From contig NZ_LMSC01000001.1 in NCBI RefSeq assembly GCF_001428025.1, positions 243,995 to 278,598 on the forward strand: a DNA stretch of 34,604 nt, written 5' to 3'. The notes under the pieces are model-generated. The model was not told the DNA's origin. It worked only from the letters and a program-made list of their open reading frames with translations, and made no database searches. Shown here in pieces: positions 1,784 through 25,426 of this stretch. The stretch comes from Phycicoccus sp. Soil748. Lineage in GTDB: Bacteria > Actinomycetota > Actinomycetes > Actinomycetales > Dermatophilaceae. The translations under genes and the position numbers were made by a program. The number at the start of each line of letters is the position of its first letter. Within the stretch, counting starts at the first letter, position 1.

Positions 1784-2191
1784 AGCATCGCGCTGCAGTA
1801 CTGCCACATCACCGTCAACGACGTCGACGAGTCGATCGCCTTCTACGGCGGAGCCCTGGGACTGGCGGTCCGCAACGACGTGGCCTCGGGCGGGTACCGC
1901 TGGGTCACCCTCGGCAGCGACGCCCAGCCCGGTCTGGAGATCGTCCTGTCCGAGCCCCATGCCGGACGCTCGCAGTCCGACGGCGACGCGCTCCAGGAGC
2001 TGCTGACCAAGGGCGTCCTGCCCAACTACGTCTTCCGCTCCGACGACGTCGATGCGACGTTCGAGACGGTCCGCGCGTCGGGCGCCGAGGTCCTCCAGGA
2101 GCCGATCGACCAGCCGTGGGGCCCACGCGACTGCGCGTTCCGCGACCCCTCGGGCAACACGGTCCGCATCGCCCAGGCGCCCACCGCCTAG
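1781..2191 (+). CDS. VOC-superfamily (glyoxalase/bleomycin-resistance-fold) protein
   Basis: This 136-residue protein has the paired beta-alpha-beta-beta-beta layout of the vicinal oxygen chelate fold. It opens with QYCHITVNDVDESIAFYGGALG (H near residue 8 is the usual first metal ligand position), has E46 in LEIVLSEP, and a second half with YVFRSDDVDATFETVRASGAEV and WGPRDCAFRDPSGN, where the family usually has its last ligand glutamate or a catalytic residue. Members are dioxygenases, lyases, isomerases or antibiotic-binding proteins; substrate cannot be read from sequence. Its stop shares the palindrome CTAG with the stop of the convergent PAS-ANTAR gene. Confidence 0.85.
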   Translation: MSIALQYCHITVNDVDESIAFYGGALGLAVRNDVASGGYRWVTLGSDAQPGLEIVLSEPHAGRSQSDGDALQELLTKGVLPNYVFRSDDVDATFETVRASGAEVLQEPIDQPWGPRDCAFRDPSGNTVRIAQAPTA

Positions 2192-3004: not shown

Positions 3005-3030
3005 GCATACCGGACGGCAGTCGCGGGTAC
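3005..3030 (+). promoter_or_regulatory. Weak sigma-B-type promoter candidate for the GAF-ANTAR gene
   Basis: GGGTAC (3025-3030) is preceded by GCAT (3005-3008) with a 16-base spacer. This fits the loose Streptomyces sigma-B consensus GNNT-N14-16-GGGTA, but lacks the GTTT seen at the stronger sites in this window. The implied leader to ATG 3072 is about 35 bases. Confidence 0.25.
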
Positions 3031-3071: not shown

Positions 3072-3767
3072 ATGGAACCGATCCGGGAGACCCGCTTCGC
3101 CCTGACCGAGATGTCCCGTTTCCAGGACGAGGACATGACTGCCCAGTTCAACGCCATGGCCTCACGGGTGGCCACGATCGCCCCGGACTGCATGGGCCTG
3201 ACGTTGTCCTACCTCCGGGAGGGACTGTCCTTCACCTGGGCCGCAAGCAGCCTCGACGTGGCAGCGCTCGACGCAGTGCAGTACGTCGACGACGGACCGT
3301 GCGTCCGCGCCATGGAGCAGGCAAGCACCATAGCCGCAGGCGTCTCCGACCCCCTGGACGAGGACAGCTGGCTCCTGTTCGCGAGGGCGGAGAACACCGT
3401 CGGCGTCGAGAGCAGCCTGTCGATCCCCCTGATGGGGGAAGGCACCGTCGTGGGCGGCGTCAACTTCTACGGCAGCACGCCCACCGCCTTCGAGGGCCTG
3501 CACGACCAGCTTGCCGCGCAGTGCGGCGGCTGGGCCGATGGCGCGGTGACCAACGCCGAGCTGTCGCTGTCCGCCGTGCGTCGGGCGAAGCAAGCGCCGC
3601 AGCGGCTCATGGACCAGTACGTGACAGAGCAAGCGATCGGCATGCTCATGGCGGCTCACCGCATCAGCGCCGAAGTGGCCGCTCGACGGCTGCACGAGGG
3701 TGCCGAGCGTGCCGGCATCCACGACGCCGAACTCGCCAGGATCCTGGTCAAGAGCCGAGTGCTGTGA
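3072..3767 (+). CDS. GAF-ANTAR RNA-binding antitermination regulator
   Basis: Predicted 231 residues: a GAF sensory domain (about residues 25-155; includes YVDDGPCVRAMEQ and the strand pair LSIPLMGEGTVVGGVNFYG) and an ANTAR domain (about 170-228) beginning TEQAIGMLMAAHRIS and ending ELARILV. The GAF plus ANTAR order is common in actinobacteria. The ATG at 3072 was chosen because GAAGGA lies about 11 bases upstream and residues before it are not conserved in type; an in-frame start at 3000 would add 24 residues. It is divergent from the PAS-ANTAR gene with a 209-base shared intergenic region, so the two may be co-regulated (inference). Confidence 0.85.
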   Translation: MEPIRETRFALTEMSRFQDEDMTAQFNAMASRVATIAPDCMGLTLSYLREGLSFTWAASSLDVAALDAVQYVDDGPCVRAMEQASTIAAGVSDPLDEDSWLLFARAENTVGVESSLSIPLMGEGTVVGGVNFYGSTPTAFEGLHDQLAAQCGGWADGAVTNAELSLSAVRRAKQAPQRLMDQYVTEQAIGMLMAAHRISAEVAARRLHEGAERAGIHDAELARILVKSRVL

Positions 3768-4615: not shown

Positions 4616-4641
4616 CTGCCCCACGCGTGCCGCGCTCAAAC
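4616..4641 (-). promoter_or_regulatory. Weak sigma-B/F-type promoter candidate for the HAD gene
   Basis: On the minus strand GTTT (4638-4641) is followed after 16 bases by GGGCAG (4616-4621). It has one mismatch from GGGTAG and a spacer one base longer than the better sites near 9.5, 10.4 and 15.7 kb. It would give a leader of about 90 bases to ATG 4518. Confidence 0.25.
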
Positions 4642-6748: not shown

Positions 6749-7192
6749 TCATCCCAGCGCCTTCCGGGCCCGCGCGAGCTCTGAGGTGCTCGCGTCCAGC
6801 TCGCCGAGCGCGGCCTTGAGCCCGCTCCGGTCGTTGCGCCGCAACGCGATACGCGTGTGCGCCAGTGCGTCGTCGGCGTTGCCGAGGAGGGTCAGCACCT
6901 GGTCGCGCAGCTGGTCCTGGCGGCGACTCGGCGGGTCGACCACGCCGAAGCTGGTCTCCACGCCTCCCATGGCGTTCTCGCTGTCCGTCACCACCGTGTC
7001 GGCGTAGGCGCTGGTCGACTTCCCCGCGAGCAGGCCGTCGACGGCCAGCCGGGCCGTCGAGGTCTCGCTGGATGCGGACTCGAGGGCGCTCTTGGCGTTC
7101 TGCTCGAAGGCGCCCGAGTCCAGGGCGGGGGCGATGCACCCGCTCAGCAGGACCACGGCGCAGCCCACAACGTACGTCGCTCGTCTGCGCAT
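6749..7192 (-). CDS. Small predicted lipoprotein, mostly helical
   Basis: About 147 residues. The N terminus RRRATYVVGCAVVLLSGC is a type II signal peptide with lipobox L-L-S-G-C; the mature chain would be anchored by a lipidated Cys on the outside of the membrane. The rest is polar and helical, rich in Ala, Ser, Arg and Asp, with no family I can name. Start choice is between ATG 7192 (TGATG overlap with the 30-residue ORF) and GTG 7195 (GTGA overlap); both imply coupling to that ORF. It lies between the membrane peptide and the Nramp-like transporter. Confidence 0.7.
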   Translation of the reverse strand: MRRRATYVVGCAVVLLSGCIAPALDSGAFEQNAKSALESASSETSTARLAVDGLLAGKSTSAYADTVVTDSENAMGGVETSFGVVDPPSRRQDQLRDQVLTLLGNADDALAHTRIALRRNDRSGLKAALGELDASTSELARARKALG

Positions 7193-7284
7193 CACGGCCG
7201 CCGCCTCAACAGGACGGTGGCCAGCGCGACCAGCATCGCCAGGAAGACCAGCCAGGCGAGCCCGAGGGCGAACCCGTCGCTCAT
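7192..7284 (-). CDS. 30-residue single-pass membrane peptide
   Basis: ATG 7284 to TGA 7192-7194 encodes 30 residues: a short polar N terminus (MSDGF), one hydrophobic helix (ALGLAWLVFLAMLVALATVLL) and a basic end (RRRP), which predicts N-out, C-in topology. Its stop overlaps the start of the lipoprotein gene, and it lies 30 bases after the NAD(P)HX dehydratase stop in the same operon. No strong Shine-Dalgarno is seen. Small size makes this tentative, but overlap with the next gene and the clean transmembrane pattern support it. Confidence 0.5.
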   Translation of the reverse strand: MSDGFALGLAWLVFLAMLVALATVLLRRRP

Positions 7285-7314
7285 GGGGTTGTCGCGCTCA
7301 TCACCCGGCTCCCT

Positions 7315-8211
7315 TCACGACCCTGTGGCCGCCGCGAGGCGCGCCATCTCCCGGGGCACCGCCGCCAGGACCTCCCGAGCGAGGAACCCCAGTGGGGCGA
7401 CCTCGTCGGAGACGGCTCGGCCGGCAGCCTGGTGCAGGGCGACCGCCCAGGCCGCCGCGCCCTCGGGCGGCAGGCCGCGACCGAGCAGCCCCACCAGCAC
7501 TCCGGCCTTCACGTCGCCCGACCCGGCCACGCCGAGGCCCGGGACACCACCGGCCAGGCTCCAGGCGGTCCGCGAGTCCGGCGCCGCGACGACGGTCTGC
7601 TCGCCACCGGTGACGACGGTCGCCCCGGTGCGTTCGACGAGCTCGACGCACGACTCGACCAGGCGATGGTGCACCTCGTCGGCATCGCGCCCCAGCGTCT
7701 CGGCGAGCTCCGACTCGTTGGGGGTGAGGACGGCTCGTCCTTCGAGGTGCGCCAGGCCGTCGGGGTGCGCGGTCACATAGGCCATGCCCAGGGCGTCCAC
7801 CACGACGGGGCAGCGCAGGTGGGGCACGACCTGCTCAAGGAAGGCGCACGCGCGCTCCGGCGACAGGAGCCCCGGCCCGAGCAGCACCGCGTCGCAGTCC
7901 GCCGCCAGCTCGAGGACGTGCTCCGCCGCCTCGGGGGCGATCTCGCCCTCATCGGTCTCCGGCAGGGCCGTCACGAAGGCCTCCGGCAGGGCGACGCTGG
8001 CCGCCACCGCCACGCTGCCGACCGTGGCGACCTGCGGCTTGCCGGCGCCTGCGCGGACCGCCGCCTCGGCCGCGAGCAGGACCGCACCGGGCGTGTGCCG
8101 GCTCCCGCCCACGACGACGACCCGGCCCCGCTGCTCCTTGCCCCCGGAGGCGTCGGGCAACGGCCACCGCGCCAGCGCGGCGGGGTCGAGGTCCCGGACG
8201 TCGCGGCTCAC
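7315..8211 (-). CDS. nnrD: ADP-dependent NAD(P)H-hydrate dehydratase
   Basis: This 298-residue protein belongs to the YjeF C-terminal/ribokinase-like family. It repairs NAD(P)HX, the hydrated, dead-end form of NAD(P)H, using ADP (ATP in eukaryotes). Visible landmarks: GRVVVVGGSRHTPGAVLLAAEAAVRAGAG-type N-terminal nucleotide fold, VVDALGM, the TPNESELAETLG segment, and the catalytic anion-hole loop AGSGDVKAG, where Asp is the general base. The partner epimerase domain (NnrE) is absent here. Start GTG 8211 overlaps the stop of the histidine phosphatase by four bases (GTGA). Longer in-frame openings upstream lie inside that gene. Confidence 0.9.
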   Translation of the reverse strand: MSRDVRDLDPAALARWPLPDASGGKEQRGRVVVVGGSRHTPGAVLLAAEAAVRAGAGKPQVATVGSVAVAASVALPEAFVTALPETDEGEIAPEAAEHVLELAADCDAVLLGPGLLSPERACAFLEQVVPHLRCPVVVDALGMAYVTAHPDGLAHLEGRAVLTPNESELAETLGRDADEVHHRLVESCVELVERTGATVVTGGEQTVVAAPDSRTAWSLAGGVPGLGVAGSGDVKAGVLVGLLGRGLPPEGAAAWAVALHQAAGRAVSDEVAPLGFLAREVLAAVPREMARLAAATGS

Positions 8212-8966
8212 GGGACCGGTCCCCTGCCCGCGTGCTCGCGCTCCTGCGTGGGCTCCTCGCCCTCGGCCCGCACCGCGGCAGCCGAGGCGTAGTCCACGAG
8301 CGCGGGCACACCGCCGGGTCCGCGGTGGTAGGTGGTGGTCGACCCGTTCGGCATCGGCACCCTCGCATCGAGCGCCAGGACTGCCTCCTCGTCCATCCCG
8401 TCGAGGACGTAGCGGAAGCACGTGATGACCGCCTGGTGGGTGAAGATCCACAACCGGTCCGTCGCCGGCCGGGCGCCGACGTCGCGCAGGAAGGACCGCA
8501 CGCGCAGGGCGACATCACACCAGCTCTCCCCTCCCGGGGGCCGGTAGTAGAACTTCCCCACGTGCTCGCGGCGGGCCGCCTCGGCGGGGTACTCGGCCCG
8601 GATACCGGTGCCGGTGAGCCCGTCGAAGACCCCGAGCTCGCGCTCGCGCAGGCGCTCGTCGTGGTGGACGGGCAGCCGCAGGCCCGCCGTCTCCATCGCC
8701 GTCCGCGCCGTGTCGGCGCTGCGGCGGTACGGCGAGCTCGCCACCGCGGTCGGGACCGCCGTCTCGGGGAGGTCGGCGAGGTGCCGGCCGAGCGCCCGGG
8801 CCTGGTTCACACCGGTGTCCGACAGCGGGACGTCCGCGTCCCTCGCGTCGAGCTCGAGGCGGGCGGCGCCGGCGCCGCGAGCCGCGCGGTCGGCGAGGTT
8901 GCCGATGCTCTCTCCGTGGCGCACGAGGACGAGTCGTGCAGGCCCCAGTCGTTGCATGTCGAGCAT
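8208..8966 (-). CDS. Histidine phosphatase superfamily (phosphoglycerate-mutase-like) protein
   Basis: 252 residues. The catalytic motif LVLVRHGES lies near residue 15 (phospho-accepting His in RHG), followed by SDTGVNQARALGRHLADL, the Arg-containing SSPYRRSADTA, the acid region RERELGVFDGL, and the second histidine in IFTHQAVI. The PPGGESWCDVALRVRSFL segment is typical of PhoE/CobC-like phosphatases. Substrate unknown. ATG 8966 is preceded by GGGAGGG at a suitable distance. It lies five bases after the SRPBCC stop and overlaps nnrD. The C-terminal 30 residues are acidic and non-conserved in type. Confidence 0.9.
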   Translation of the reverse strand: MLDMQRLGPARLVLVRHGESIGNLADRAARGAGAARLELDARDADVPLSDTGVNQARALGRHLADLPETAVPTAVASSPYRRSADTARTAMETAGLRLPVHHDERLRERELGVFDGLTGTGIRAEYPAEAARREHVGKFYYRPPGGESWCDVALRVRSFLRDVGARPATDRLWIFTHQAVITCFRYVLDGMDEEAVLALDARVPMPNGSTTTYHRGPGGVPALVDYASAAAVRAEGEEPTQEREHAGRGPVP

Positions 8967-8971
8967 CGTGA

Positions 8972-9430
8972 TCAGCCCTCCCGCGGCACCTCGCCGCGCC
9001 AGCTGCCGGTGGCCTCCTGGTTGCTCTCCACGAGGAGGCGGAACCTCTTGAGGTCGCCCTTGGCGCGTCGCTCGATGACGCCCAGGGCGTCGCCCACGTG
9101 CTCCACGAGGCCGTGCGGGTCCAGGTCGAGCTGGAGCGACACGTTGGTCCTGCGGTCCTCCACGCGGTGGAAGTCGACGACTCCCGCGTGCTGCACCTCG
9201 CCGTCGGCCTTCCACGCGACCCGGACCTCGGGGATCTGCTCGGTGATCGTGGCGTCGAACTCGCGGTGCACCCCCGCGATGCTGACCCTCCAGTGCAGGT
9301 GGCGGTCGTCGAGCTGGGTGACCTCGTCCACCCCCTCCATGAACAGGGGGAAGTCCTCGAACTGCGTCCACTGGTTGTAGACGGTGGTGATGTCGCTCGC
9401 GACGTCGATGTGCGCTTCGGCGGTGGTCAC
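8972..9430 (-). CDS. SRPBCC-fold protein (polyketide cyclase/START-like)
   Basis: 152 residues. The N terminus has the pattern of COG5637-type SRPBCC proteins: I-D-V-A-S-D-I-T-T-V-Y-N-Q-W-T-Q-F-E-D-F-P-L-F-M (split by me for length), then V-T-Q-L-D-D-R-H-L-H-W and a final long helix near residues 110-135. The fold makes a hydrophobic pocket; a specific ligand cannot be assigned. GTG 9430 was chosen because GAGAGGAGA lies just upstream; longer openings to 9607 run into the promoter region. It is the first gene of the minus-strand run that continues through nnrD to the Nramp-like transporter. Confidence 0.85.
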   Translation of the reverse strand: MTTAEAHIDVASDITTVYNQWTQFEDFPLFMEGVDEVTQLDDRHLHWRVSIAGVHREFDATITEQIPEVRVAWKADGEVQHAGVVDFHRVEDRRTNVSLQLDLDPHGLVEHVGDALGVIERRAKGDLKRFRLLVESNQEATGSWRGEVPREG

Positions 9431-9479: not shown

Positions 9480-9504
9480 CTACCCGGTCCCCGTGCCGAC
9501 AAAC
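9480..9504 (-). promoter_or_regulatory. Sigma-B/sigma-F-type stress promoter of the SRPBCC-to-Nramp operon
   Basis: On the minus strand GTTT (9501-9504) and GGGTAG (9480-9485) are separated by exactly 15 bases, matching the actinobacterial sigma-F/sigma-B consensus GTTT-N15-17-GGGTA. Transcription would start near 9470, giving a leader of about 40 bases to GTG 9430. Confidence 0.6.
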
Positions 9505-9524
9505 GCCCGTGCGGCGGTGCGCCG

Positions 9525-9549
9525 GTTTGGCACCGGGGCGGTGGGGCAC
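9525..9549 (+). promoter_or_regulatory. Sigma-B/sigma-F-like promoter of the DUF72 gene
   Basis: GTTT (9525-9528), 15 bases, then GGGCAC (9544-9549), one mismatch from GGGTAC. It is back-to-back with the minus-strand site 20 bases away and lies about 40 bases before ATG 9591. Confidence 0.4.
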
Positions 9550-9590
9550 CACAGGAGCGGCACGACAGCTGGAGGCGAGAGGAGGCAGGG

Positions 9591-10469
9591 ATGATCCGCA
9601 TCGGCACTTCCGGATGGCGCTACCCCTCGTGGCGTGGCGACTTCTACCCGACGGGGCTGCGCCAGCGTGACGAGCTCGCCTACCTCAGCCGCCTGCTCAC
9701 CGCGGTGGAGGTGAACGGCTCCTTCTACTCCCTGCAGCGCCCCAGCAGCTACGCCGCGTGGGCTGCCCAGGCGCCCGAGGGCTTTCCCTTCGCCGTGAAG
9801 GGCGGCCGGTTCATCACGCACCTGCGCCAGCTGATGGAGGTGGAGACGCCCCTGGCCAACTTCTTCGCCTCCGGCGTCCTGGCGCTCGGCGACCGGCTGG
9901 GCCCGGTCCTGTGGCAGCTGCCGGCGCGCACGGCGTTCGACGAGGAACGGCTCGCCGCGTTCTTCGAGCTGCTGCCGCGCACCACGGACGCCGCGGCGTC
10001 GCTCGCCGCCCGCCACGGCCCCAACCTCACCGGTGACCGTGTCCTGACGACCGCCCCGGTGAGCACGCCGATCCACCACGTGCTCGAGCCACGCCACGAG
10101 AGCTTCCGGTCGTCCCAGGCAGTGGACCTGCTGCGCGCGCACGGGATCGGGACCGTGGTGTCCGACAGTGCGGGCACCTGGCCGATGTTCGACGCGGTCA
10201 CCTCGGACGTCGTCTACGTGCGGCTGCACGGAGACACCGAGCTGTACACGAGCGGGTACTCGCCCGCGGCCCTGGCGACGTGGGCGGACCGGGTAAGCGG
10301 CTGGGCCGACGAGGGCCTCGAGGTCCACGTCTACTTCGACAACGACGCGCGGGGCCATGCCCCGCACGACGCACGGGCCCTGCTCGAGGCGCTCGGCCTG
10401 GCACCGGAGCCGGTGGACCTGCCTCCCCTCCGTCAGGTTTCGGCGCGTCGTCGGCGGGTAGGTCCGTGA
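9591..10469 (+). CDS. DUF72 family protein (TIM-barrel-like, YecE type)
   Basis: 292 residues. The start IRIGTSGWRYPSWRGDFYP and the segments TAVEVNGSFYSLQRPSSYAAW and FPFAVKGGRFITH define the DUF72/YecE family, a TIM-barrel fold of unsettled function. Later conserved stretches are EPRHESF, VVSDSAGTWP, VVYVRLHG and VHVYFDNDARGHAPHDA. ATG 9591 has AGGAGG eight bases upstream. It shares a 160-base divergent promoter region with the SRPBCC gene. The C-terminal basic tail (SARRRR) overlaps the promoter of the next gene. Confidence 0.9.
   Translation: MIRIGTSGWRYPSWRGDFYPTGLRQRDELAYLSRLLTAVEVNGSFYSLQRPSSYAAWAAQAPEGFPFAVKGGRFITHLRQLMEVETPLANFFASGVLALGDRLGPVLWQLPARTAFDEERLAAFFELLPRTTDAAASLAARHGPNLTGDRVLTTAPVSTPIHHVLEPRHESFRSSQAVDLLRAHGIGTVVSDSAGTWPMFDAVTSDVVYVRLHGDTELYTSGYSPAALATWADRVSGWADEGLEVHVYFDNDARGHAPHDARALLEALGLAPEPVDLPPLRQVSARRRRVGP
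10437..10461 (+). promoter_or_regulatory. Sigma-B/sigma-F-type promoter of the LEA/holin/DUF3618 cassette
   Basis: GTTT (10437-10440), exactly 15 bases, then GGGTAG (10456-10461). It is embedded in the last codons of the DUF72 gene and lies about 60 bases before the start of the cassette. It is the same motif and spacing as the site at 9480-9504. Confidence 0.6.
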
Positions 10470-10524
10470 CAGCCGCGGTCGAGGAGACCGCGCGTCCAGC
10501 ACTCGTTGAAAGAACAGGATGGAC

Positions 10525-11256
10525 ATGAGCGAGACATACGGAACCACCGGCACCACCACATCCACCGACGTCGCCAAGGACGAGGCACGCGCCACCGGCC
10601 AGCAGGCCAAGGAGGGCGCACGGCACGTCGCCGAGGTGGGCAAGGACGAGGCGAAGAACGTCGCCCAGGAGACGGGTCAGCAGGCGAAGGAGCTGTGGCA
10701 GCAGACCCGCAGCCAGCTGATGGAGCAGAGCGCCCAGCAGCAGACCCGGGTGGCCGACGGCCTCCGCTCCCTCAGCGAGGAGCTGTCGGGCATGGCCCGC
10801 GGCTCCGAGCAGCAGGGCGTCGCCAGCGACCTGGCGCACCAGGCGTCGCAGCGCATGGGCGACGTCGCGAGCTGGCTCGACCAGCGCGACCCCGGCTCCC
10901 TGGTGTCGGAGGTCAAGCAGTTCGCTCGACAGCGGCCCGGCACCTTCCTCGCCGCCGCTGCGGTGGTCGGCCTTGTCGGCGGCCGGCTGAGCCGGGGCCT
11001 CGTGGCCGAGCACCAGGACCAGCAGGGCGGCAGCTCGTCCACCGGCGGCCCGGCCGGTGAGGGCTACACCGCCACCGCCCCGGTCCCGGTCGACCACAGC
11101 ACCGCCGGGTACTCCGCCTACGGCTCCCCCACCGGCACGGTCACCCCGGCCGCGCCGCACCCCGTCACCGACCCGGTGGTCGAGGCGGGTGGCATCACGG
11201 GGGTCGACGGTCCCGTCGGCGGGACCGCTCCCGAGGCGGGCGAGCTCCCCCGATGA
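10525..11256 (+). CDS. LEA-like coiled-coil membrane-associated protein
   Basis: 243 residues. Residues about 15-70 carry two related amphipathic repeats (KDEARATGQQAKEGARHVAEVG-like, again as KDEAKNVAQETGQQAKELWQQT), the kind of 11-residue periodicity seen in LEA proteins (group 3). A hydrophobic, Ala/Gly-rich helix (PGTFLAAAAVVGLVGG) at about 138-155 could enter the membrane. The C terminus is Pro/Gly/Thr-rich and disordered. No enzymatic motif. ATG 10525 has AGG spaced 6 bases upstream; ATG 10519 sits too close. The stop overlaps the holin-like gene (ATGA). Confidence 0.7.
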   Translation: MSETYGTTGTTTSTDVAKDEARATGQQAKEGARHVAEVGKDEAKNVAQETGQQAKELWQQTRSQLMEQSAQQQTRVADGLRSLSEELSGMARGSEQQGVASDLAHQASQRMGDVASWLDQRDPGSLVSEVKQFARQRPGTFLAAAAVVGLVGGRLSRGLVAEHQDQQGGSSSTGGPAGEGYTATAPVPVDHSTAGYSAYGSPTGTVTPAAPHPVTDPVVEAGGITGVDGPVGGTAPEAGELPR

Positions 11257-11675
11257 GCCACCAGGACCCCCGGCTGGACGACCCGTCCAACCGGTCGTTG
11301 AGCAACGTCGGCGACATCTTCGCCGACATCAGCCGAGACCTCTCCACCTTGATCCGGCAGGAGACGGAGCTGGCCAAGGCCGAGCTGCGTGAGTCGGCCA
11401 CCCGGGCCGGCACGGGCGCAGGGATGCTCGGAGGTGCCGGCGTCGCCGGACACTTCGTGCTGCTCTTCCTGTCGATCGCCCTCTGGTGGAGCCTCGGCAG
11501 CGCCATCGGGCGCGGCTGGTCCGCCGTCGTGGTCGCGGTCATCTGGGCCGTCATCGCCGCGGTCCTGGCCGCCATGGGACGCAGCAAGCTCAAGCAGGTC
11601 AAGGGAATTCCACAGACGCAAGCCACCGCGCGCGAGATCCCCGACGCGCTGAAAGGGAACGAGGACAAGCGATGA
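11253..11675 (+). CDS. Phage holin-like small membrane protein (actinobacterial Phage_holin_3_6 / DUF1469 type)
   Basis: 140 residues. A soluble N-terminal helix with ISRDLSTLIRQETELAKAEL, the hallmark of this family, is followed by two transmembrane helices (about residues 55-80 and 88-110) and a charged C terminus. Despite the Pfam label, chromosomal copies next to DUF3618 genes are not phage lysis genes; they are thought to act in envelope or stress physiology (established context, function unproven). Four-base overlaps (ATGA) with both neighbours show a translationally coupled cassette. Confidence 0.85.
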   Translation: MSHQDPRLDDPSNRSLSNVGDIFADISRDLSTLIRQETELAKAELRESATRAGTGAGMLGGAGVAGHFVLLFLSIALWWSLGSAIGRGWSAVVVAVIWAVIAAVLAAMGRSKLKQVKGIPQTQATAREIPDALKGNEDKR

Positions 11676-12271
11676 CCAACAACCCTGATGAGATCCGTCG
11701 TGAGATCGAGGACACCCGCGGCCGGCTGAGCAGCGACGTCAACGCGCTCACCGAGACCGTGAGCCCGTCCAACGTCGCCCGTCGCCAGGCCGACAAGGTC
11801 GCCGGAGCGGCGACATCGGTCAAGGAGCGCGTGATGGGCGTTGCCGGCGACGTGGGCAGCACCGGCTCCGGCGCCGCCTCCAGCGTCTCGGGCGCCGCCT
11901 CCACCGTGGGTCACGCACCCATGGCCGCGGCCAGCGGTGCGAAGCGCCGCACCGAGGGCAACCCCCTCGCCGCTGGCCTGATCGCCCTCGGCGCCGGTTG
12001 GCTCATCGGTTCGATGCTGCCTGCCTCCGAGAAGGAGAAGCAGGCGGCCAGCGCCGTCAAGGAGAAGGCTCAGCCGCTCGTGGAGGAGGCCAAGAGCGTC
12101 GCCCAGGACACGGCGCAGCAGCTCAAGGAGCCGGCCATGGACGCGGCCCAGAGCGTCAAGGAGACGGCCATGGAGGCCAAGGAGAACGTCACCGAGGAGG
12201 GCAGGTCGACCGCCGACGACGTGAAGTCGCAGGCGCAGTCCTCCGCCGAGACGGTGCGCTCCACGCAGTAG
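11672..12271 (+). CDS. DUF3618 domain protein with membrane helix and LEA-like tail
   Basis: 199 residues. The first 40 (DEIRREIEDTRGRLSSDVNAL, then E-T-V-S-P) match the DUF3618 N-terminal signature. A Ser/Gly/Ala-rich region follows, then one hydrophobic helix (PLAAGLIALGAGWLIGSMLP, about residues 97-116) and a long amphipathic, Lys/Glu/Ala-rich C-terminal helix (about 120-195) with repeated A-K-S-V-A-Q-D-T-A / A-Q-S-V-K-E-T-A units. It likely lies on the membrane surface. It starts inside the stop of the holin-like gene, and a strong hairpin follows 29 bases after its stop. Confidence 0.85.
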   Translation: MTNNPDEIRREIEDTRGRLSSDVNALTETVSPSNVARRQADKVAGAATSVKERVMGVAGDVGSTGSGAASSVSGAASTVGHAPMAAASGAKRRTEGNPLAAGLIALGAGWLIGSMLPASEKEKQAASAVKEKAQPLVEEAKSVAQDTAQQLKEPAMDAAQSVKETAMEAKENVTEEGRSTADDVKSQAQSSAETVRSTQ

Positions 12272-12299
12272 GTGGATGGAGCGGTACGCCGCTCACGAA

Positions 12300-12335
12300 G
12301 GGGAAGGGCGGGAGCTGGTGCTCCCGCCCTTCCTC
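12300..12335. terminator. Intrinsic-type hairpin between convergent operons
   Basis: GAAGGGCGGGAG (12303-12314) pairs perfectly with CTCCCGCCCTTC (12321-12332) around a 6-base loop; outer pairs extend the stem to 12300-12335 with one G-T pair. There is no T-run on either strand. It lies between the stop of the DUF3618 gene (12271) and the stop of the minus-strand permease gene (12400), so it may serve both strands. Confidence 0.75.
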
Positions 12336-12399
12336 GTGTCCGGCGCCGCTCGGTGGGGCGGCGCTCGGTGAGGCTGCGCTCGGTATGGCGCTGCGGCGC

Positions 12400-13350
12400 T
12401 CAGCCCTGCTTGGCGCTGGTGGCGATGCCGTCAAGGATGTGCCGCTGGGCGAACGCGAACATCATGATCATCGGCAGCGTCGCCAGCAGGGTGGCCGCCA
12501 TCGCGATCTCCCAGTGGTACTCGCCCGAGAGGGCGAAGCTGTCGACGATGAGCTTCAGGCCACGCGGCATCGTGAAGTAGCTCTCGGTCTGCAGGTAGAT
12601 GAGCGGCTTCATCAGGTCCGACCAGCTCGCCTGCAGCTCGAAGACGAACACGATGATGAGCGCAGGCCGGGCCAGGGGCAGCGCGATCCGTCGGAACATG
12701 CCGAAGTAGCTGCAGCCGTCGACGCGGGCTGCCTCGAAGAGCTCACGCGGTATGCCGAGGAAGAACTGGCGCAGCAGGAAGATGTAGAAGGCCGAGCCGA
12801 ACAGGTTCTGGGCCCACAGCGGGACCTGGGTGTCGACCATGCCCAGGTGGTTCCAGATCAGGTAGACCGGGATCATCGTGACCGCCCCGGGCAGCATCAT
12901 CGTCGACAGCACGAGGCCGAAGACCAGCCCGCGGCCGCGGAAGCGGAAGTAGGCGAACCCGAACGCCACGAGCGCGCTCGAGAGCGTCACCGTCGTCGCG
13001 GCCATGAGGCCGACGACCACCGAGTTGACGAGCCACTGCAGGACCGGGCCGGCCCGCCACACCTCGACGAAGTTGTGCCACTGCACGTCGGACGGGATGA
13101 GCCTGTTGTCGAACACCTGGGACTTGGGCTTCAGCGCCGCACTGACCAGCCAGACCAGCGGGTAGACGAAGGCGGCCGTGGCCAGCCACAGCAGGGCCAG
13201 CCGCAGCGGCGACCACCACGACCACGAACGGGGACCCGGGCGCGAGGGGGCCGACGGAGCACCCTCACCCCACCCGGTGCCCGGTCCCACGTCCTTGCCG
13301 GCAGAGGCCGCCGCGGCTGCAGGTGGGGTGGACTCGTCCAGGGCGCTCAT
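12400..13350 (-). CDS. Carbohydrate ABC transporter permease (MalG-like)
   Basis: 316 residues with a Pro/Ala-rich N-terminal tail of about 40 residues and six predicted transmembrane helices. The EAA loop, E-L-F-E-A-A-R-V-D-G-C-S-Y-F-G-M-F-R-R-I-A-L-P, which contacts the ATPase, is present near residue 215. Family: inner-membrane subunit of CUT1-type sugar importers. The ATG start overlaps the stop of the first permease (ATGA), and the gene is the last of the three-gene operon. No ATP-binding subunit is found next to it. Confidence 0.92.
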   Translation of the reverse strand: MSALDESTPPAAAAASAGKDVGPGTGWGEGAPSAPSRPGPRSWSWWSPLRLALLWLATAAFVYPLVWLVSAALKPKSQVFDNRLIPSDVQWHNFVEVWRAGPVLQWLVNSVVVGLMAATTVTLSSALVAFGFAYFRFRGRGLVFGLVLSTMMLPGAVTMIPVYLIWNHLGMVDTQVPLWAQNLFGSAFYIFLLRQFFLGIPRELFEAARVDGCSYFGMFRRIALPLARPALIIVFVFELQASWSDLMKPLIYLQTESYFTMPRGLKLIVDSFALSGEYHWEIAMAATLLATLPMIMMFAFAQRHILDGIATSAKQG

Positions 13351-14267
13351 CGGCTCTCCCCCTCGTAGTAGACGAACCGGTTGCCGATCCGGAACTGCAG
13401 GGCGGTGATGAGCAGGATGATGACGAACAGCAGCCAGGCCATGGACGACGCGAAGCCCATCTTGAAGAACTGGAACGCGTTCTGGAACAGGTAGACCATG
13501 TAGACGAGCGACTCGTCGGAGGCGGTCGCCTTCTGCTGTGGCCCGTAGAACATCGTGTAGGCCTGGTCGAACATCTGCATCGCCGCGATGGTGTGCGTGA
13601 TGACGGTGAAGAACAGGGCGCCGGAGATCATCGGGAGCGTGATGTGCCAGAAGCGGCGCACGGGTCCGGCGCCGTCGAGCATGGCCGCCTCGTGCAGCTG
13701 CCGCGGCACGTTGTGCAACGCCGCGAGGTAGATGACGATGCTGCCGCCGACGGTCCACAGGCTCACCACGGCCAGCGACGGCTTCAGCCACGCCGGGTCG
13801 GTGGTCCAGTTGGGCCCGTCGATGCCGACCCACCCGAGCACCTCGTTGACCAGGCCACGCTGTCCGTTGAGCAGCAGCAGGAACATCGCGCCCGCCGCCA
13901 CGGCCGGAGTCATCACCGGCAGGTAGAAGGCCGTGCGGAAGAAGCCCGCCATCCGCCCGACCCGCTGCAGCAGCATGGCCAGCCCGAGGGCCACGGCCGT
14001 GCCGAGCGGCACGAACATCGCGGCATACGTGAAGGTGTTGGCCAGGGACGTCCTGACCCGGGGGTCGGACCAGAGGTCGCGGTAGTTCTCGAGCCCGACA
14101 GCGTGCGACTGCCCGACGAGCGAGTAGTCCGTGAACGACAGCACCAGGCTCACGACCATCGGCCCCGCCGTGAACACGAGGAACCCGACGATCCACGGCG
14201 CGATGAACCACCAGCCTCCCCGGCTCTCGTGCCGGCTCACCGCGCTGCGGGAGGCTCTTCTACCCAC
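13347..14267 (-). CDS. Carbohydrate ABC transporter permease (MalF-like)
   Basis: 306 residues, six transmembrane helices, first at about W-W-F-I-A-P-W-I-V-G-F-L-V-F. The EAA loop reads H-E-A-A-M-L-D-G-A-G-P-V-R-R-F-W-H-I-T-L-P. GTG 14267 overlaps the solute-binding protein stop by eight bases and has GAAGG about 10 bases upstream; GTG 14240 is an alternative. Longer in-frame openings give an implausible Arg-rich N terminus. It forms the heterodimeric channel with the MalG-like protein. Confidence 0.9.
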   Translation of the reverse strand: MGRRASRSAVSRHESRGGWWFIAPWIVGFLVFTAGPMVVSLVLSFTDYSLVGQSHAVGLENYRDLWSDPRVRTSLANTFTYAAMFVPLGTAVALGLAMLLQRVGRMAGFFRTAFYLPVMTPAVAAGAMFLLLLNGQRGLVNEVLGWVGIDGPNWTTDPAWLKPSLAVVSLWTVGGSIVIYLAALHNVPRQLHEAAMLDGAGPVRRFWHITLPMISGALFFTVITHTIAAMQMFDQAYTMFYGPQQKATASDESLVYMVYLFQNAFQFFKMGFASSMAWLLFVIILLITALQFRIGNRFVYYEGESR

Positions 14268-15636
14268 CGGAGACCTTCGAGTACGCCGCCTGGGCCTCCT
14301 TCTGCGCCTGGTCCAGTGCTGCCTTCGCGGACTGGCCACCGAGGGCCCGGGCCACGCCGCTCTTCCACGCCGCGTCGATCTCCGCGCCCGCCGGGGAGGG
14401 GTTGAGCGCCTTGGCCGAGTCGAGGGTGGCGTAGAACGCCTGGATGGCCTGCTCGAAGCCGGCGTCGGGGGCCTTGGTGAGGTACTTCTCGCGGATCTGG
14501 TCGTCGGCCTGCTTGTTGGCGGTGAACAGACCGGTGAAGAAGCTGCCGTCCTTCTTCACCGTCGCCATCCGCGCCTCGGCGGCCTTCATCCAGGTGTCCG
14601 TCGTGGTCATCGTCTTGGCCCAGGCGCACGCGGCCTTGGGGTTCTTGGCGCCCTTCGGGATCGCCCAGGCCTGGCCGCCGAGGGTGCTCACCGGCTTGCC
14701 GTCGCGACCCAGGATGGGGGCGGCGCCGAGCTGCAGGCCGGCCTTGCGCGAGTCGCGCAGGACGTTGACGTACCAGTTCTCCATGGGGAAGGCCGCGATC
14801 GAGCCAACCGTGAGCGGGTTCTTCTCGCCGAAGATGTCGTAGGAGTCGCGGAACGCCTTGAAGTTGCCCCAGCCGCCCTGGTCCTTCACGAGACCGAGGG
14901 CGAAGTCGAGGGCCTCGACGGCCTTGGGGTCGTTGAGGTTCGGAGACCCGTCGGCCTTGACGATCTCGGCGCCGTTGATGGCAGCCCACAGCGGGAAGGA
15001 GTCGGGCAGCTTGGGGTCGTAGCCGATCCGCTTGATCTTGCTGCCCGAGCCCTCGTAGAGCTTGGCGGAGGTCGCCTTCAGCGCGGCCCAGTCCTTGGTC
15101 TGGATGTCGTCGACGGTGAGGCCGGCCGCCTTGACCGTCTTGGCGTCGACGAGGTCGACGGACACGATGTAGAACTCCGGGATGCCATACGGCTTGTCCT
15201 TGTAGGTGACCGACCGCATGGCCGCCGGCCGGTACTGCCCGGTGTCGACCTGCTGGCCCGAGACGCAGTCGGACAACGGCTGGAGGGCGCCCTTCGCGGC
15301 GTAGGTGCCGATGAGGTTGCGGTCGATGTAGACGAGGTCCGGCGGGTTGCCGCTGGCGAGCGCGGTGAGGAACTGCTGGGCGTCGAAGTCACCCTTGTTG
15401 TGGGTGACGCTGACGTCCGGGTAGGCCTTCTGGAAGGCGCTGATGCGGGCTTGGGCCACCTCGTCCTCGCCCCCGAAGCCCATGATGTTGAGCTTGCCGG
15501 ACGGGGTCCCGGACCACGTGCTGCCGGACTTCCCCGAGCTGTCGCCCCCGCCGGAGCTCTTGCTCCCCACGCCGGCACAGCCGGTGGCGAGCAGGATCGG
15601 CACCAGGCTGAGGACGGCGAGTCGTCTGCGGGTCAT
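14260..15636 (-). CDS. Extracellular solute-binding lipoprotein, family 1 (sugar-type ABC importer)
   Basis: 458 residues. A type II signal peptide ends in lipobox L-A-T-G-C about residue 20; a Gly/Ser linker follows, then the family 1 pattern: KLNIMGFGGEDEVAQARI, QKAYPDVSVTH, QQFLTALASGNPPDLVYID and, later, GGQAWAIPKGAKNPKAACA. It would capture a carbohydrate outside the membrane and deliver it to the two permeases. The ATG at 15636 has GGAGG eight bases upstream; GTG 15645 overlaps that site and is less likely. Substrate unknown; no glycosidase or LacI regulator is adjacent. Confidence 0.92.
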   Translation of the reverse strand: MTRRRLAVLSLVPILLATGCAGVGSKSSGGGDSSGKSGSTWSGTPSGKLNIMGFGGEDEVAQARISAFQKAYPDVSVTHNKGDFDAQQFLTALASGNPPDLVYIDRNLIGTYAAKGALQPLSDCVSGQQVDTGQYRPAAMRSVTYKDKPYGIPEFYIVSVDLVDAKTVKAAGLTVDDIQTKDWAALKATSAKLYEGSGSKIKRIGYDPKLPDSFPLWAAINGAEIVKADGSPNLNDPKAVEALDFALGLVKDQGGWGNFKAFRDSYDIFGEKNPLTVGSIAAFPMENWYVNVLRDSRKAGLQLGAAPILGRDGKPVSTLGGQAWAIPKGAKNPKAACAWAKTMTTTDTWMKAAEARMATVKKDGSFFTGLFTANKQADDQIREKYLTKAPDAGFEQAIQAFYATLDSAKALNPSPAGAEIDAAWKSGVARALGGQSAKAALDQAQKEAQAAYSKVSGG

Positions 15637-15690
15637 CGAGGGCACCTCCGTCGCAGGGCCACCCTGGTTGACGACCCCTTCCCGCGGCTC

Positions 15691-15715
15691 TTACCCCGCC
15701 CTCCGGTGGAGAAAC
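15691..15715 (-). promoter_or_regulatory. Sigma-B/sigma-F-type promoter of the ABC importer operon
   Basis: On the minus strand GTTT (15712-15715), exactly 15 bases, then GGGTAA (15691-15696). A start near 15683 would give a leader of about 47 bases to ATG 15636. Same motif and spacing as at 9480-9504 and 10437-10461. Confidence 0.5.
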
Positions 15716-15761
15716 GCCTCTCGCCCTGCGCCCCGCAGCGGCCCCGTGCAGACCGCCACGC

Positions 15762-16696: not shown

Positions 16697-17917
16697 ATGA
16701 GGGAGCACGCCGCCGCCACTTCGGCGGGCACGCCCACGCGTGCGCTGGTCCTCGCCACGACCGGCTTCGCCATCAACTTCTGGGCGTGGGCCCTCCTCAG
16801 CCCGCTCGGGCCGCGGTTCAAGGACCTGCTCGCGCTGTCCTCGGGGCAGCAGGCCCTCGTGGTGGCCGTCCCGGTCATCGTCGGCTCGGTCGGTCGCATC
16901 CCCGTCGGCGCCCTGACCGACCGGTTCGGCGGCCGGGTGATGTTCCCCATCGTGTCTCTGGCGACCGTCGTGCCGGTGCTCTTCATCGGCCTGCTGGGCC
17001 AGGACTCTCTCGCGGGGCTGCTCGTCGGCGGCTTCTTCCTCGGCATCGGCGGCACCGCGTTCGCCATCGGGGTGCCGCTCGTCAACGCGTGGTTCCCGCC
17101 CGAGCGGCGCGGGTTCGCGATCGGCGTCTTCGGCGCCGGCATGGGCGGCACCGCGGTCAGCGCCCTGACCACCGTGCGCCTGGTCACCGGGGTGGGCGAC
17201 AAGGCACCCTTCCTCATCACCGCGCTCGCGCTCGTGGCGTATGCAGCGCTGGCCTGGCTCTTCCTTCGCGACGCACCGGGGCGCGTGGTCCCGACCACCT
17301 CGGTGCTGAGCCGCCTCGGGGCTGCCGCGCGGCTGCCCATCGCGTGGCAGGCGTGCGTCCTCTACGCCATCGCTTTCGGCGGCTACGTCGCCTTCTCCGT
17401 CTACCTGCCGGCCTACCTCAAGACCGCCTACGGCCTCGAGCAGGCCGACGCCGCCAACCGGATGGCGGGCTTCGTGGTCCTGGCCGTGGTGATGCGCCCG
17501 GTGGGCGGCTGGCTCGCCGACCGGGTCGGCGCGGTCACCGTGCTGGCCTGGGTGTTCGCGGTTGTCGCCGCCGGTGCGGCGCTGCAGGCCACGACCCCCG
17601 ACCTCATGCCGGTCGGCACCATCGCGTTCCTCGCGATGGCCGCCGCCCTCGGAGCCGGCAGCGGTGCGACGTTCGCGCTCGTGGCGAGGAGCGCGCCGCC
17701 CGCACAGGTCGGATCCGTCACCGGGCTCGTCGGGGCGGCCGGTGGCCTCGGCGGCTTCGTGCCTCCGCTGATCATGAGCAGCGTCTACGCCAGCCGCGGC
17801 TCCTACGGCCTCGGGCTGGTCCTGCTCGCGCTGGTGGCCCTCGGGTGCCTGGCCCTGTCGCTGACGATCGTCCGCTCGACAGCCAGGGCCCGCGAGGTCG
17901 GTGTCGCCCGTGTGTGA
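16697..17917 (+). CDS. narK: Nitrate/nitrite transporter, MFS superfamily
   Basis: 406 residues, about 12 transmembrane helices. It has the nitrate/nitrite-porter features: an N-terminal FAINFWAWALLSPLGPRFKD helix, GRIPVGALTDRFGGR (helix 2 Arg and the MFS loop motif), and two Gly-rich nitrate-signature helices (GIGGTAFAIGVPLVNAWFP and GAGSGATFALVARSAP). The role is nitrate uptake and/or nitrate-nitrite exchange for the cytoplasmic-facing NarG. GGGAGGA lies before ATG 16697. It is the first gene of a six-gene overlapping operon; its stop lies 8 bases inside the hemerythrin gene. Confidence 0.93.
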   Translation: MREHAAATSAGTPTRALVLATTGFAINFWAWALLSPLGPRFKDLLALSSGQQALVVAVPVIVGSVGRIPVGALTDRFGGRVMFPIVSLATVVPVLFIGLLGQDSLAGLLVGGFFLGIGGTAFAIGVPLVNAWFPPERRGFAIGVFGAGMGGTAVSALTTVRLVTGVGDKAPFLITALALVAYAALAWLFLRDAPGRVVPTTSVLSRLGAAARLPIAWQACVLYAIAFGGYVAFSVYLPAYLKTAYGLEQADAANRMAGFVVLAVVMRPVGGWLADRVGAVTVLAWVFAVVAAGAALQATTPDLMPVGTIAFLAMAAALGAGSGATFALVARSAPPAQVGSVTGLVGAAGGLGGFVPPLIMSSVYASRGSYGLGLVLLALVALGCLALSLTIVRSTARAREVGVARV

Positions 17918-18500
17918 GTACTGCGGCTGCCAGGACATCGCTGCCATCGCCGAGCTCACCCGCGAGCACGACGCCGTCGTCGCCGAGATCGCCCACGTCC
18001 GGGTGGCCGTCCGTGAGGGTGACGTCGACGGGGCAGCGGTGGTGGCGCGGCGGATCAGCGCCATCCTGCGACCCCACACCGCGGTCGAGGAGCACGGCCT
18101 GTTCCCCCACCTGGCCCACGACTTCCCCGGCCACATCGCTGTCCTCCAGCGAGAGCACAGTGAGATCGAGACGGTCCTGGCCGAAGCCGCGTCCCCGACC
18201 TCCCCCGGCCCTGGCTGGCTTCCCCGGTTGCTGGAGGCCATGGAGCGCCTGCGCGACCACATCCTCAAGGAGCAGGACGGGCTCTTCCCCGCCTCACTGT
18301 CGGTCCTCGACGAGTCGGGGTGGGCCTCGGTGGAGGCCGCCCGCGCGCTGGCCGGCTCAGGCCTCTCCGCTGCCCGGACCGAGGCGTCCGACCGCCACGG
18401 CCACGCGCACGACCGGCCGCACGACCAGCCGCACGACCACCCGCACGACCACCCGCACGACCCTGTCCTGACCCGCCGAGCAGGAGGCGCCGTCCTTTGA
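17910..18500 (+). CDS. Hemerythrin-domain protein with Cys-rich start and His-rich tail
   Basis: 196 residues from GTG 17910 (GTG 17901 would add three). It opens with M-C-E-Y-C-G-C, three cysteines in the first seven residues. The hemerythrin bundle (about 10-130) has the expected diiron ligand spacing H20, H56-x3-E60, H83 and H117-x3-E121. Residues about 163-184 are a His/Asp/Pro-rich tail built from 12-base DNA repeats and may bind metal. Hemerythrins bind O2 or NO, or repair Fe-S centres. Sitting between narK and narG with overlaps on both sides, it probably serves nitrate respiration, for example NO handling, O2 sensing or iron supply (inference). Confidence 0.85.
   Translation: MCEYCGCQDIAAIAELTREHDAVVAEIAHVRVAVREGDVDGAAVVARRISAILRPHTAVEEHGLFPHLAHDFPGHIAVLQREHSEIETVLAEAASPTSPGPGWLPRLLEAMERLRDHILKEQDGLFPASLSVLDESGWASVEAARALAGSGLSAARTEASDRHGHAHDRPHDQPHDHPHDHPHDPVLTRRAGGAVL
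18405..18464 (+). repeat. 12-base tandem repeat encoding the His-rich tail
   Basis: Five consecutive 12-base units follow the pattern CCGCACGACCAC (units at 18405, 18417, 18429, 18441, 18453), the two central copies almost identical. Each encodes a P-H-D-H/Q-like tetrapeptide. Such an array can gain or lose copies in frame, so tail length may vary among strains. Confidence 0.85.
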
Positions 18501-21500
18501 CCACCACGAGCAGGTCGACGTCCAGCGGGCCCGGGATCGACGGGCCCCTCACCGAGGCCCTCGTGGGCACGCGCCGCTTCTTCACCCGGGCGGAGGTGTC
18601 CGCCGACGGGCGCACGATGACGGCCAAGGGTGGCCGCGCCGGCGACGCCTTCTACCGCGACCGCTGGAGCCACGACAAGGTCGTGCGCTCCACCCACGGC
18701 GTCAACTGCACCGGCTCCTGCTCGTGGAAGGTCTACGTCAAGGACGGGATCATCACCTGGGAGTCCCAGCAGACCGACTACCCCACCACCGGTCCCGATC
18801 GACCGGAGTACGAGCCGCGCGGCTGTCCGCGCGGCGCTGCCTTCTCCTGGTACACCTACTCCCCCACCAGGATCCGCTACCCCTATGTGCGCGGGGTGCT
18901 CCTGGAGATGTACCGGGAGGCGAAGGCCCGGCTGGGCGACCCGGTGCTGGCGTGGGCCGACGTCGTCGGCGACCCCGAGAAGGCCAGTCGCTACAAGGCC
19001 GCCCGTGGCAAGGGCGGCCTCGTCCGTGCCACCTGGACCGAGGCGGCCGAGATGGTCGCCGCCGCCAACGTCCACACCATCAAGGCCTGGGGGCCTGACC
19101 GGATCGCCGGCTTCTCGCCGATCCCGGCGATGTCCATGGTCAGCCACGCCTCCGGCGCCCGCTTCACCTCCCTCATCGGCGGCTCGATGCTGTCCTTCTA
19201 CGACTGGTACGCCGACCTGCCGGTGGCCTCGCCGCAGATCTGGGGAGACCAGACCGACGTCCCGGAGTCCGGTGACTGGTGGGACGCCGGCTACCTCGTG
19301 ATGTGGGGCTCGAACGTCCCGGTGACCCGCACGCCCGACGCCCACTGGATGGCCGAGGCGCGGTACCGCGGCCAGAAGGTCGTCGTCGTCGCGCCGGACT
19401 ATGCCGACAACGTCAAGTTCGCCGACGAGTGGCTGCCCGCCGCCCCCGGCACCGACGGGGCCCTCGCCATGGCCATGGGCCACGTGGTGCTCAAGGAGTT
19501 CTTCGTCGACCGGCAGGTCGACTACTTCGAGGACTACACCCGCCGCTTCACCGACCTGCCCTTCCTCGTCTGCCTGGAGGAGTACGGCGCGCCTGCGGCC
19601 GACGACGGGCGCGCCACCGACGGCGCGCGGCCGCTGCGGCCGGGCAAGTTCCTCACTGCCGCGGACCTCGGCGGCGAGCGGGCACGCACGGAGAACGCGG
19701 CCTTCCGCACCGTCCTCGTCGACTCTGTCACCGGCGAGCCGGTCGTGCCGAACGGCACCCTCGGCGACCGCTTCGGCGACGAGGGCGAGGGCCTCTGGAA
19801 CCTCGACCTCGGCGACGTGGTGCCGGCCCTGAGCCTGCTGCAGAGCCGGGACGACACCGCAGTGGTCGACCTCCCACGCTTCGACCTGCCGCGGGGAGCC
19901 TCGGAGGTGGTCCGACGCGGCGTACCGGTGCGCCGGGTCGGCGGCCAGCTGGTCACCACCGTCTTCGACCTGCTGCTCGCGCAGTACGGCGTTGCGAGAG
20001 AAGGACTTCCGGGCACCTGGCCCTCGGGGTACGACGACGCCGACGGGCTCTACACGCCGGCCTGGCAGGAACCGGTCACGGGCGTGCCCGGCGCTGCCGT
20101 GGCGAGGATCGCCCGCGAGTTCGCGCAGAACGCCGCCGACACCGGCGGCCGGTCGATGATCATCGTGGGCGCCGGGACCAACCACTGGTTCCACTCCGAC
20201 GAGACCTACCGGTGCATGCTGCTGCTGACCACGATCACCGGGTGCCAGGGGCGCAACGGCGGTGGCTGGGCGCACTACGTGGGGCAGGAGAAGGCGCGGC
20301 CGATCACCGGGTGGGCGCAGATGGCGTTCGGCCTGGACTGGGTGCGCCCGCCGCGGCAGATGATCCAGACGGCGTACTGGTACCTGCACACCGACCAGTT
20401 CCACTACGACCACTACACGGCCGACTCGCTGGCGGGTGCCACGGGTACGGGGATCTTCGAGGGGATGAGCACCCACGACCAGCTGGCGCTGTCGGCTCGT
20501 CTCGGGTGGATGCCGTCCTACCCCACGTTCGACCGCAACCCCCTCGACCTCGCCGACGAGGCGGAGGCCGCGGGGAAGCCCGTCGGTGACCACGTCGTCG
20601 AGCAGCTGAGGTCGGGCGCGCTCCGCTTCGCCTGCGAGGACCCGGACGCCCCGGAGAACTGGCCGCGGGTGCTGATGATGTGGCGTGCCAACCTGTTCGG
20701 CTCCTCGGCCAAGGGCAACGAGTACTTCCTGAAGCACCTGCTGGGCACCGACAGCTCGGTCTCGGCGGTGCCCGACGAGGACGGCCTGCCCAAGGGCAAG
20801 CTCGACCTGCTGTGCACCGTCGACTTCCGGATGACCAGCTCGACGATCTTCAGCGACGTCGTCCTGCCGGCCGCCACCTGGTACGAGAAGCACGACATCA
20901 ACACCACCGACATGCACCCGTTCATCCACTCGTTCAACCCGGCCATCAGCCCGCCGTGGCAGACCCGCACGGACTGGGACGCCTTCCAGAGCATCGCGGA
21001 GGCGTTCGCACCGCTCGGGGCCAAGCACCTCGGCGTGCGCAAGGACGTCGTGTCCGTGCCCCTGTTGCACGACACCGCCGATGCCATGGCCACCCCCCAC
21101 GGGCGGGTGCTCGACTGGGCCAAGGGCGAGTGCGAGCCGATCCCGGGGCGGACCATGCCCAAGCTCGTCGTGGTCGAGCGCGACTATGGCGCGGTCTTCG
21201 ACCAGATGGGGGCCTTGGGCCCGCTCATGGAGAAGCTGGGCACGACGCAGAAGGGCGTGACCTACGACGTACGGCGCGAGGTGGAGCACCTGCTCCACAA
21301 GAACGGTCCCGTCCGCGGCGGCACGGCCGCAGGACGCCCGTCCCTCAAGGACGCCCGCCACGTCGCCGAGACGATCATGGCGCTGTCCGGCACCACGAAC
21401 GGGCACCTCGCCACCCAGGGCTTCAAGACCCTCGAGCGGCGCACCGGGCAGCTGATGCACGACCTCGCTGCCGAGCACGAGGGCAAGATGATCAGCTTCG

Positions 21501-25315: not shown

Positions 25316-25330
25316 GCCGTACCCGGTTCT

Positions 25331-25390: not shown

Positions 25391-25426
25391 CTGCTCCGGT
25401 CGGCCCGGGCCTGCCATCATGGCGAC

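Follow-up and report, generated by a model that had tools for sequence, protein, structure and literature searches.

In a 34.6-kb stretch of the Phycicoccus sp. Soil748 genome (hereafter the window; the genome, G000, amounts to 3.97 Mb in 12 contigs and is 99.94% complete), a group of near-identical elements, each consisting of GTTT followed after 15 bases by GGGTA or a close variant, precedes genes of unrelated function. From sequence evidence, we read these elements as promoters that are very probably (roughly 0.87) recognized by the genome's single SigB/SigF/SigG-like sigma factor, which would be freed under stress and would switch on the genes beside them. The observations that carry this reading are the motif itself, its spacer preference, its position before start codons, its conservation at orthologous loci, the presence of the sigma gene, and the synteny of an island around that gene in related species. 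The elements of the window are:

9480 to 9504, minus strand: candidate SigB/F-type promoter GTTT-N15-GGGTAG before the SRPBCC, histidine phosphatase and NAD(P)HX dehydratase genes; exact match
9525 to 9549, plus strand: weaker candidate variant GTTT-N15-GGGCAC before a DUF72 gene; one mismatch
10437 to 10461, plus strand: candidate SigB/F-type promoter GTTT-N15-GGGTAG before an LEA-like/Holin-X/DUF3618 cassette; exact match
15691 to 15715, minus strand: GTTT-N15-GGGTAA before an ATP-binding cassette (ABC) importer; exact as far as GGGTA, with the GTTT overlapping a putative LacI-type palindrome (15709 to 15722)
4616 to 4641, minus strand: weak candidate GTTT-N16-GGGCAG before a HAD hydrolase gene, from sequence alone

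These elements have the composition of a SigB/F-type promoter, with a GTTT -35 and a GGGTA or GGGCA -10 separated by a constant distance of roughly 14-17 bases. Exact GTTT-N15-GGGTA occurs three times in the window (9481-9504, minus; 10437-10460, plus; 15692-15715, minus), whereas 100 dinucleotide-preserving shuffles yielded a mean of 0.01 and never more than one. With one mismatch allowed there are five matches against 0.86 expected, a count reached in 0 of 100 shuffles; the fourth of them is the GGGCAC site (9525-9548, plus) and the fifth lies at 1267-1290 (minus). An initial annotation of the window had proposed the elements at 9480, 10437 and 15691 together with the one-mismatch element at 9525, and all were found, with G, G, A and C as the sixth -10 base as it had claimed. 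Genes and start codons were called with our own codon-model script, which was trained on 38 open reading frames (ORFs) of this genome and applied to its relatives too. By these calls, the distance to the start codon is 49 bases for SRPBCC, 57 for the gene at 10519, 54 for the importer's solute-binding protein and 41 for DUF72, and the 10437 site sits within the final codons of the DUF72 gene (9591-10469). The claim that all sites lie 30-95 bases before a start on the correct strand holds for these four (41-57 bases), but the 4616-4641 site is 121 bases from the called HAD start, or 88 if a longer listed ORF starting at 4527 is correct. Two weaker variants had also been proposed: the one at 4616-4641 exists, reading GTTT-N16-GGGCAG, while 3005-3030 contains GGGTAC with no GTTT in front of it and was not counted as a promoter, which marks a weak point of the original claim.

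The fixed 15-base spacer describes the window's main sites, but genome-wide the spacer is 15 or 16. In the window's own genome, 12 of the 15 matches to GTTT-N12..18-GGGTA have one of these two spacers (p 5e-5). Across the 11 genomes of the genus, GTTT-N9..22-GGGTAG yields 129 matches, 42 at spacer 15 and 27 at spacer 16 (69/129 in all, with 18.4 expected for both), and 62 of 118 fall at these spacers when the window's genome is left out. The flanking bases follow the spacer as well: at spacer 15, G follows GTTT in 28/42 matches and C precedes GGG in 29/42, compared with 19/60 and 20/60 at other spacers. A SigB/F/G-like gene (>200 bits to the window genome's own protein) is present in all 11 genus genomes. 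In contrast, 12 family members that lack one (best match ~80 bits, the level of SigA) have 17 of 124 matches at spacer 15 or 16, where 17.7 are expected; a thirteenth such genome, G024, which stands outside that count, has 6 of 52 among the matches listed (127 in all), and family member G018 was left out of the pattern search. The spacer enrichment is clear within the genus and weak outside it. Sites with the preferred spacer also occupy the position expected of promoters, since in the ten relatives 47 of 62 spacer-15/16 sites lie no more than 150 bases upstream of a called same-strand start, as against 8 of 38 sites with other spacers (Fisher p 1e-7; the test covers all 62 of the former and 38 of 56 of the latter).

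Conservation was followed at orthologous places found by protein search and not by the motif, namely the DUF72 orthologs of G003, G004, G006 and G009 and the importer orthologs of G001 and G002. In all four DUF72 loci a site lies at or just past the end of DUF72 and before the LEA-like gene, composed of GTTT, a 15-base spacer and GGGCAG, GGGCAT, GGGCAA and GGGCAT, respectively. The LEA-like gene of G005, G007 and G008 is preceded by a site too, but these loci were fetched because of the motif; with them, GTTT, GGG.A and spacer 15 of the 10437-type site are invariant in eight genomes. On the other side of DUF72, the four protein-located loci have one more GGGTAG site, oriented like DUF72; in G003, G004 and G009, GTTT-N15-GGGTAG precedes a short gene (a DUF2795 homologue in G004) and then DUF72. 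A site divergent from DUF72's side precedes the histidine phosphatase orthologs of G004 and G009, and a putative promoter precedes a phosphatase homologue in G008. Among 20 long DUF72 matches, five have such sites (our own and these four), one (L110) has only a GGGCAC site and 14 have none.

The genome contains one SigB/F/G-like gene, at positions 564163-565008 of contig C7, which encodes a short protein of 282 amino acids with Sigma70_r2, r3 and r4 all present. Among solved chains, this protein comes closest to two short sigma factors, 8x6g_H and 1l0o_C, and every SigA chain ranks behind them. Four GTTT-N15/16-GGGTA sites fall in the 19.5 kb round the gene (C7:552000-571500):

one site before an NADPH-dependent FMN reductase gene, 10 bases from the called start
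two sites before a DUF2795 gene
one site before hemerythrin, YqcI/YcgG and DUF1989 genes, which are transcribed away from the sigma gene

Between them, the window and the sigma locus hold 7 of the 12 own-genome spacer-15/16 sites (p 1e-4 and 3e-7 under uniform scatter); the window had been selected because of its sites and the sigma locus had not. The hemerythrin genes of the sigma locus are followed by a GAF-ANTAR gene, and a hemerythrin gene (165 amino acids; L261, L262, L128, L215) with an upstream SigB/F-type site was met in 7 of 11 genus genomes by way of the motif, in four of them near the sigma gene. The locus additionally carries GTTTGG...GGGGCA variants with spacer 16 at C7:560699-560723 (minus) and 565013-565037 (plus), before an alcohol-dehydrogenase gene and a 77-amino-acid ORF, which resemble the 9525 site of DUF72.

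In two relatives, G004 and G006, no more than ~10 kb separates the sigma gene from DUF72 and the LEA-like gene. A 9-kb run of G004 (L261) with four sites joins sigma, then hemerythrin, YqcI, DUF1989 and GAF-ANTAR, then NAD(P)HX dehydratase and histidine phosphatase, then DUF2795 and DUF72, and finally the LEA-like, Holin-X and DUF3618 genes. G006 (L262) runs from sigma through hemerythrin, YqcI, DUF1989, GAF-ANTAR and DUF72 to the LEA-like gene, where the contig ends; phosphatase and dehydratase were not called in between. The sigma gene of G002 (L263) lies beside the importer genes, with HAD, Nramp and FMN-reductase homologues within the next 10 kb, and in G008 (L264) it is a second, shorter sigma match that lies beside DUF72. 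Sigma and DUF72 are far apart in other genus genomes, such as G003 and G010, and Soil748 has the set on two separate contigs, C7 (sigma, hemerythrin, DUF2795) and C1 (the window). Given this synteny and this division, the best reading of the window cluster is as one piece of a divided sigma-factor island, whose promoters would have stayed with their genes. The sites would then be clustered because the window retains a portion of this island, which in related species is still found around the sigma gene; the rearrangement may have been a split here or a joining there.

The site before the ABC importer is a less certain member of the set. Orthologs of the solute-binding protein occur in two of the ten relatives (G001 and G002), and each of the two carries GTTTCTCC together with GGGTAA at spacer 15, so that spacer 15 and GGGTAA are kept in 3/3 importer orthologs. 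In the same three, however, the GTTT is taken in by the palindrome GAGANNCGNNTCTC (window 15709-15722; L259 2953; L260 1394 and 1412), which appears twice in G001 and which we take to resemble a LacI-type operator; among the fetched loci the pattern recurs only at two unrelated places, L080 and L031. The GTTT could on this evidence belong to the operator, with sugar control exerted through a repressor on some other promoter and no sigma-B/F site at 15691 at all, an explanation to which we give somewhat less than even odds. GGGTAA is nevertheless held at exactly 15 bases in all three orthologs despite differing intervening bases, a spacing that a bare operator does not need, and the importer adjoins the sigma gene in G002. 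We therefore lean towards a SigB/F-type promoter with an overlapping operator.

This ambiguity, in which an exact GTTT-N15-GGGTAA has its -35 inside a palindrome, is one of several points that weigh against a sigma-B/F regulon. Taken by itself, the bare pattern shows little enrichment in the window's own genome (15 matches at spacers 12-18, compared with 11 when the pattern is reversed); what is enriched there is the spacer. The genome scan that the initial annotation had proposed as a check favors its claim across the genus, where the right-spacer motif is concentrated before starts. The GGGCA variant is marginal there (13/57 at spacer 15 or 16, 8.1 expected, p 0.056) and was not used as a genome-wide signal in itself, and the p-values, although very small for the genus, treat related genomes as independent. 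In 11 genomes of the family that fall outside the genus and carry a more remote SigB/F-like gene, 22/105 matches have spacer 15 or 16, where 15.0 are expected; this does not set them apart from the sigma-less group (p 0.16), and the enrichment is too weak to use as support. No clear site of this kind was seen upstream of the sigma gene itself, and several own-genome sites are without an evident target: the gene caller gave no clear one for matches on C9 (99502 and 102600) and C11 (4552), and C7:983407 was rejected as a promoter together with its look-alikes in G007 and G008 (L158, L189), which are probably conserved coding sequence because in the relatives the site falls at the 3' end of a coding region and is followed by no called gene on its strand. 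Finally, the best NCBIfam model for the sigma protein is SigBFG (TIGR02980), at 222.9 bits with a cut-off of 234.35 that is not reached, for which reason we call the protein SigB/F/G-like and not a member of the subfamily; its scores against the FliA/WhiG and RpoD models are 105 and 91.

The shortfall against this curated cut-off, the weak enrichment that sigma-positive genomes show beyond the genus and the presence of several weaker sigma-type matches in the genome would suit an explanation in which the elements are genuine promoters of a different sigma factor, or sites of some other regulator, with the SigB/F/G-like protein a bystander. We consider this improbable, as only one SigB/F/G-like gene is present and the second-best match (133 bits) is of the RpoD/SigA type, four sites surround the sigma gene, and the spacer spectrum of the sigma-less family members is flat. 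That a GC-rich genome simply yields GTTT...GGGTA matches, three of which happened to fall together, would agree with the near-equal count for the reversed pattern and with the matches seen at every spacer in sigma-less relatives; the sharp spacer peak, the position before starts, the orthologous conservation and the shuffles make chance very improbable indeed for the set as a whole. The proposal that unrelated operons share sigma-B/F promoters is accordingly upheld by a spacer-specific motif before starts across the genus and by the presence of the sigma gene, with the importer ambiguous and 3005-3030 no match.

Components of a partner-switching pathway are also encoded in the genome. The search for a SigB/F gene with RsbV and RsbW, likewise suggested with the initial annotation, turned up the SigB/F/G-like gene along with STAS genes and with anti-sigma genes of the RsbA and RsbW types: an RsbA-family anti-sigma gene scores 341.5 bits (cut-off 210), an RsbW-like HATPase_c_2 protein has 128 amino acids, and there are five STAS matches, one of them in a SpoIIE-HATPase-STAS fusion. 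None of 24 HATPase_c_2 matches lies within C7:552000-571500, beside the sigma gene. No motif was present in the stretches fetched around four anti-sigma candidates and around one more HATPase gene. Stress would free the sigma factor from its anti-sigma partner, and RNA polymerase would then start at GTTTG-N14/15-CGGGTAG-like elements, leading to expression of the SRPBCC, phosphatase and NAD(P)HX-repair genes, of DUF72 and of the LEA-like/Holin-X/DUF3618 cassette, and less certainly of the ABC importer. We infer three points: that the sites are read by this sigma protein, which anti-sigma partner restrains it, and that stress is the trigger. A "general stress" role is suggested by the gene content and by characterized relatives.

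The genes that follow the four main sites are, with the Pfam family where one was assigned:

8972 to 9430, minus strand: SRPBCC (Pfam)
8208 to 8966, minus strand: histidine phosphatase (Pfam)
7315 to 8211, minus strand: NAD(P)HX dehydratase (Pfam)
9591 to 10469, plus strand: DUF72 protein (PF01904, 233 bits)
10519 to 11256, plus strand: LEA-like protein (no Pfam family; the label is that of the initial annotation)
11253 to 11675, plus strand: Holin-X (PF07332)
11672 to 12271, plus strand: DUF3618 (PF12277)
12400 to 13350 and 13347 to 14240, minus strand: two permeases of the ABC importer, read from the sequence by eye with no family scan
14260 to 15636, minus strand: solute-binding protein of the ABC importer (PF01547)

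A single run from SRPBCC to Nramp is not borne out, as the gene calls leave a 146-base gap at 7169-7314. Hsp20 (15817) and the SpoIIE phosphatase (25427), the latter described as RsbU-like, had been counted as members of a stress locus; neither has the motif in the 120 bases upstream, and nothing in these data ties either of them to the sigma factor, although a link between the phosphatase and the partner-switching pathway is possible. The phosphatase gene (25427-27235) has GAF-GAF-SpoIIE domains and lies near a molybdopterin-oxidoreductase gene, in a region (16697-27235) that runs from a major facilitator superfamily (MFS) transporter through this oxidoreductase, nitrate-reductase-like by eye, and further genes to the phosphatase. 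Elsewhere in the genome, the site at C12:104936 is ~155 bases before a molybdopterin oxidoreductase gene. Two divergent ANTAR-domain genes occupy 2188-2862 (minus) and 3072-3767 (plus) of the window.

For the genus, the sites provide a testable sigma-B/F-type regulon, in which the poorly characterized DUF72, DUF2795, DUF3618, Holin-X, YqcI/YcgG and DUF1989 families are tied to one likely regulator. Comparing the spacer spectra of genomes that have the sigma gene with those of genomes that lack it also separates real sites from chance ones in GC-rich DNA. A more speculative and, in our estimate, rather unlikely extension is that this sigma factor, which has no adjoining anti-sigma gene, is governed by the genes around it in a self-contained oxidative-stress island. 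Hemerythrin, with YqcI/YcgG, DUF1989 and GAF-ANTAR, would sense oxygen or peroxide and feed back on sigma, and the effector arm would consist of DUF72, NAD(P)HX repair and the LEA-like/Holin-X cassette, relocated in this genome to another part of the chromosome with its promoters intact. The feedback is proposed because the hemerythrin MsmHr (MSMEG_2415) is reported to repress sigF in Mycobacterium smegmatis (PMC4295536).

The kind of system is already known, and SigF of M. smegmatis is among the closest likenesses. In the portions of the accounts on which this comparison draws, as for all the systems cited below, the M. smegmatis consensus is GTTT-N(14-19)-GGGTA, with GGGCA variants and some sites inside preceding ORFs, and hemerythrins and catalases are down in a sigF mutant (PMC4694148); the GTTT/GGGTA motif, a site inside a preceding ORF and a hemerythrin gene with a site are all shared here. 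SigF there is under partner-switching control that involves several homologues of RsbW, not all of them encoded near sigF, and rsbW1 is adjacent to sigF (PMC7693655), unlike the 19.5 kb round our sigma gene with no HATPase_c_2 match. Against the SigF model NF005514 our sigma protein scores 200, with a cut-off of 372, and against the Sigma_B model 149 bits, with a cut-off of 315. The sigB gene of Bacillus subtilis lies in the rsb operon, unlike the sigma gene here. Its SigB consensus is quoted as GTTTAA-N12-14-GGGA/TAA/T (PMC8346170). SigB homologues of Streptomyces coelicolor have a GTTT-type -35 and mapped -10 elements GGGTAG, GGGCAC, GGGCAT and GGGCAA (PMC8346170), and nine such homologues with overlapping promoters are described there, as opposed to one here. 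Sigma-H of Actinoplanes sp. SE50/110 has a GTTT / GGGTA motif at a mean distance of 14.6, with Holin-X and DUF3618 genes among those raised (PMC11205660), so that the window's cassette appears to be a typical target; DUF72 and NAD(P)HX repair, in contrast, do not figure in the part of that account at hand. Compared with these systems, what is new here is the genus, the company of DUF72 and NAD(P)HX repair, and the island.

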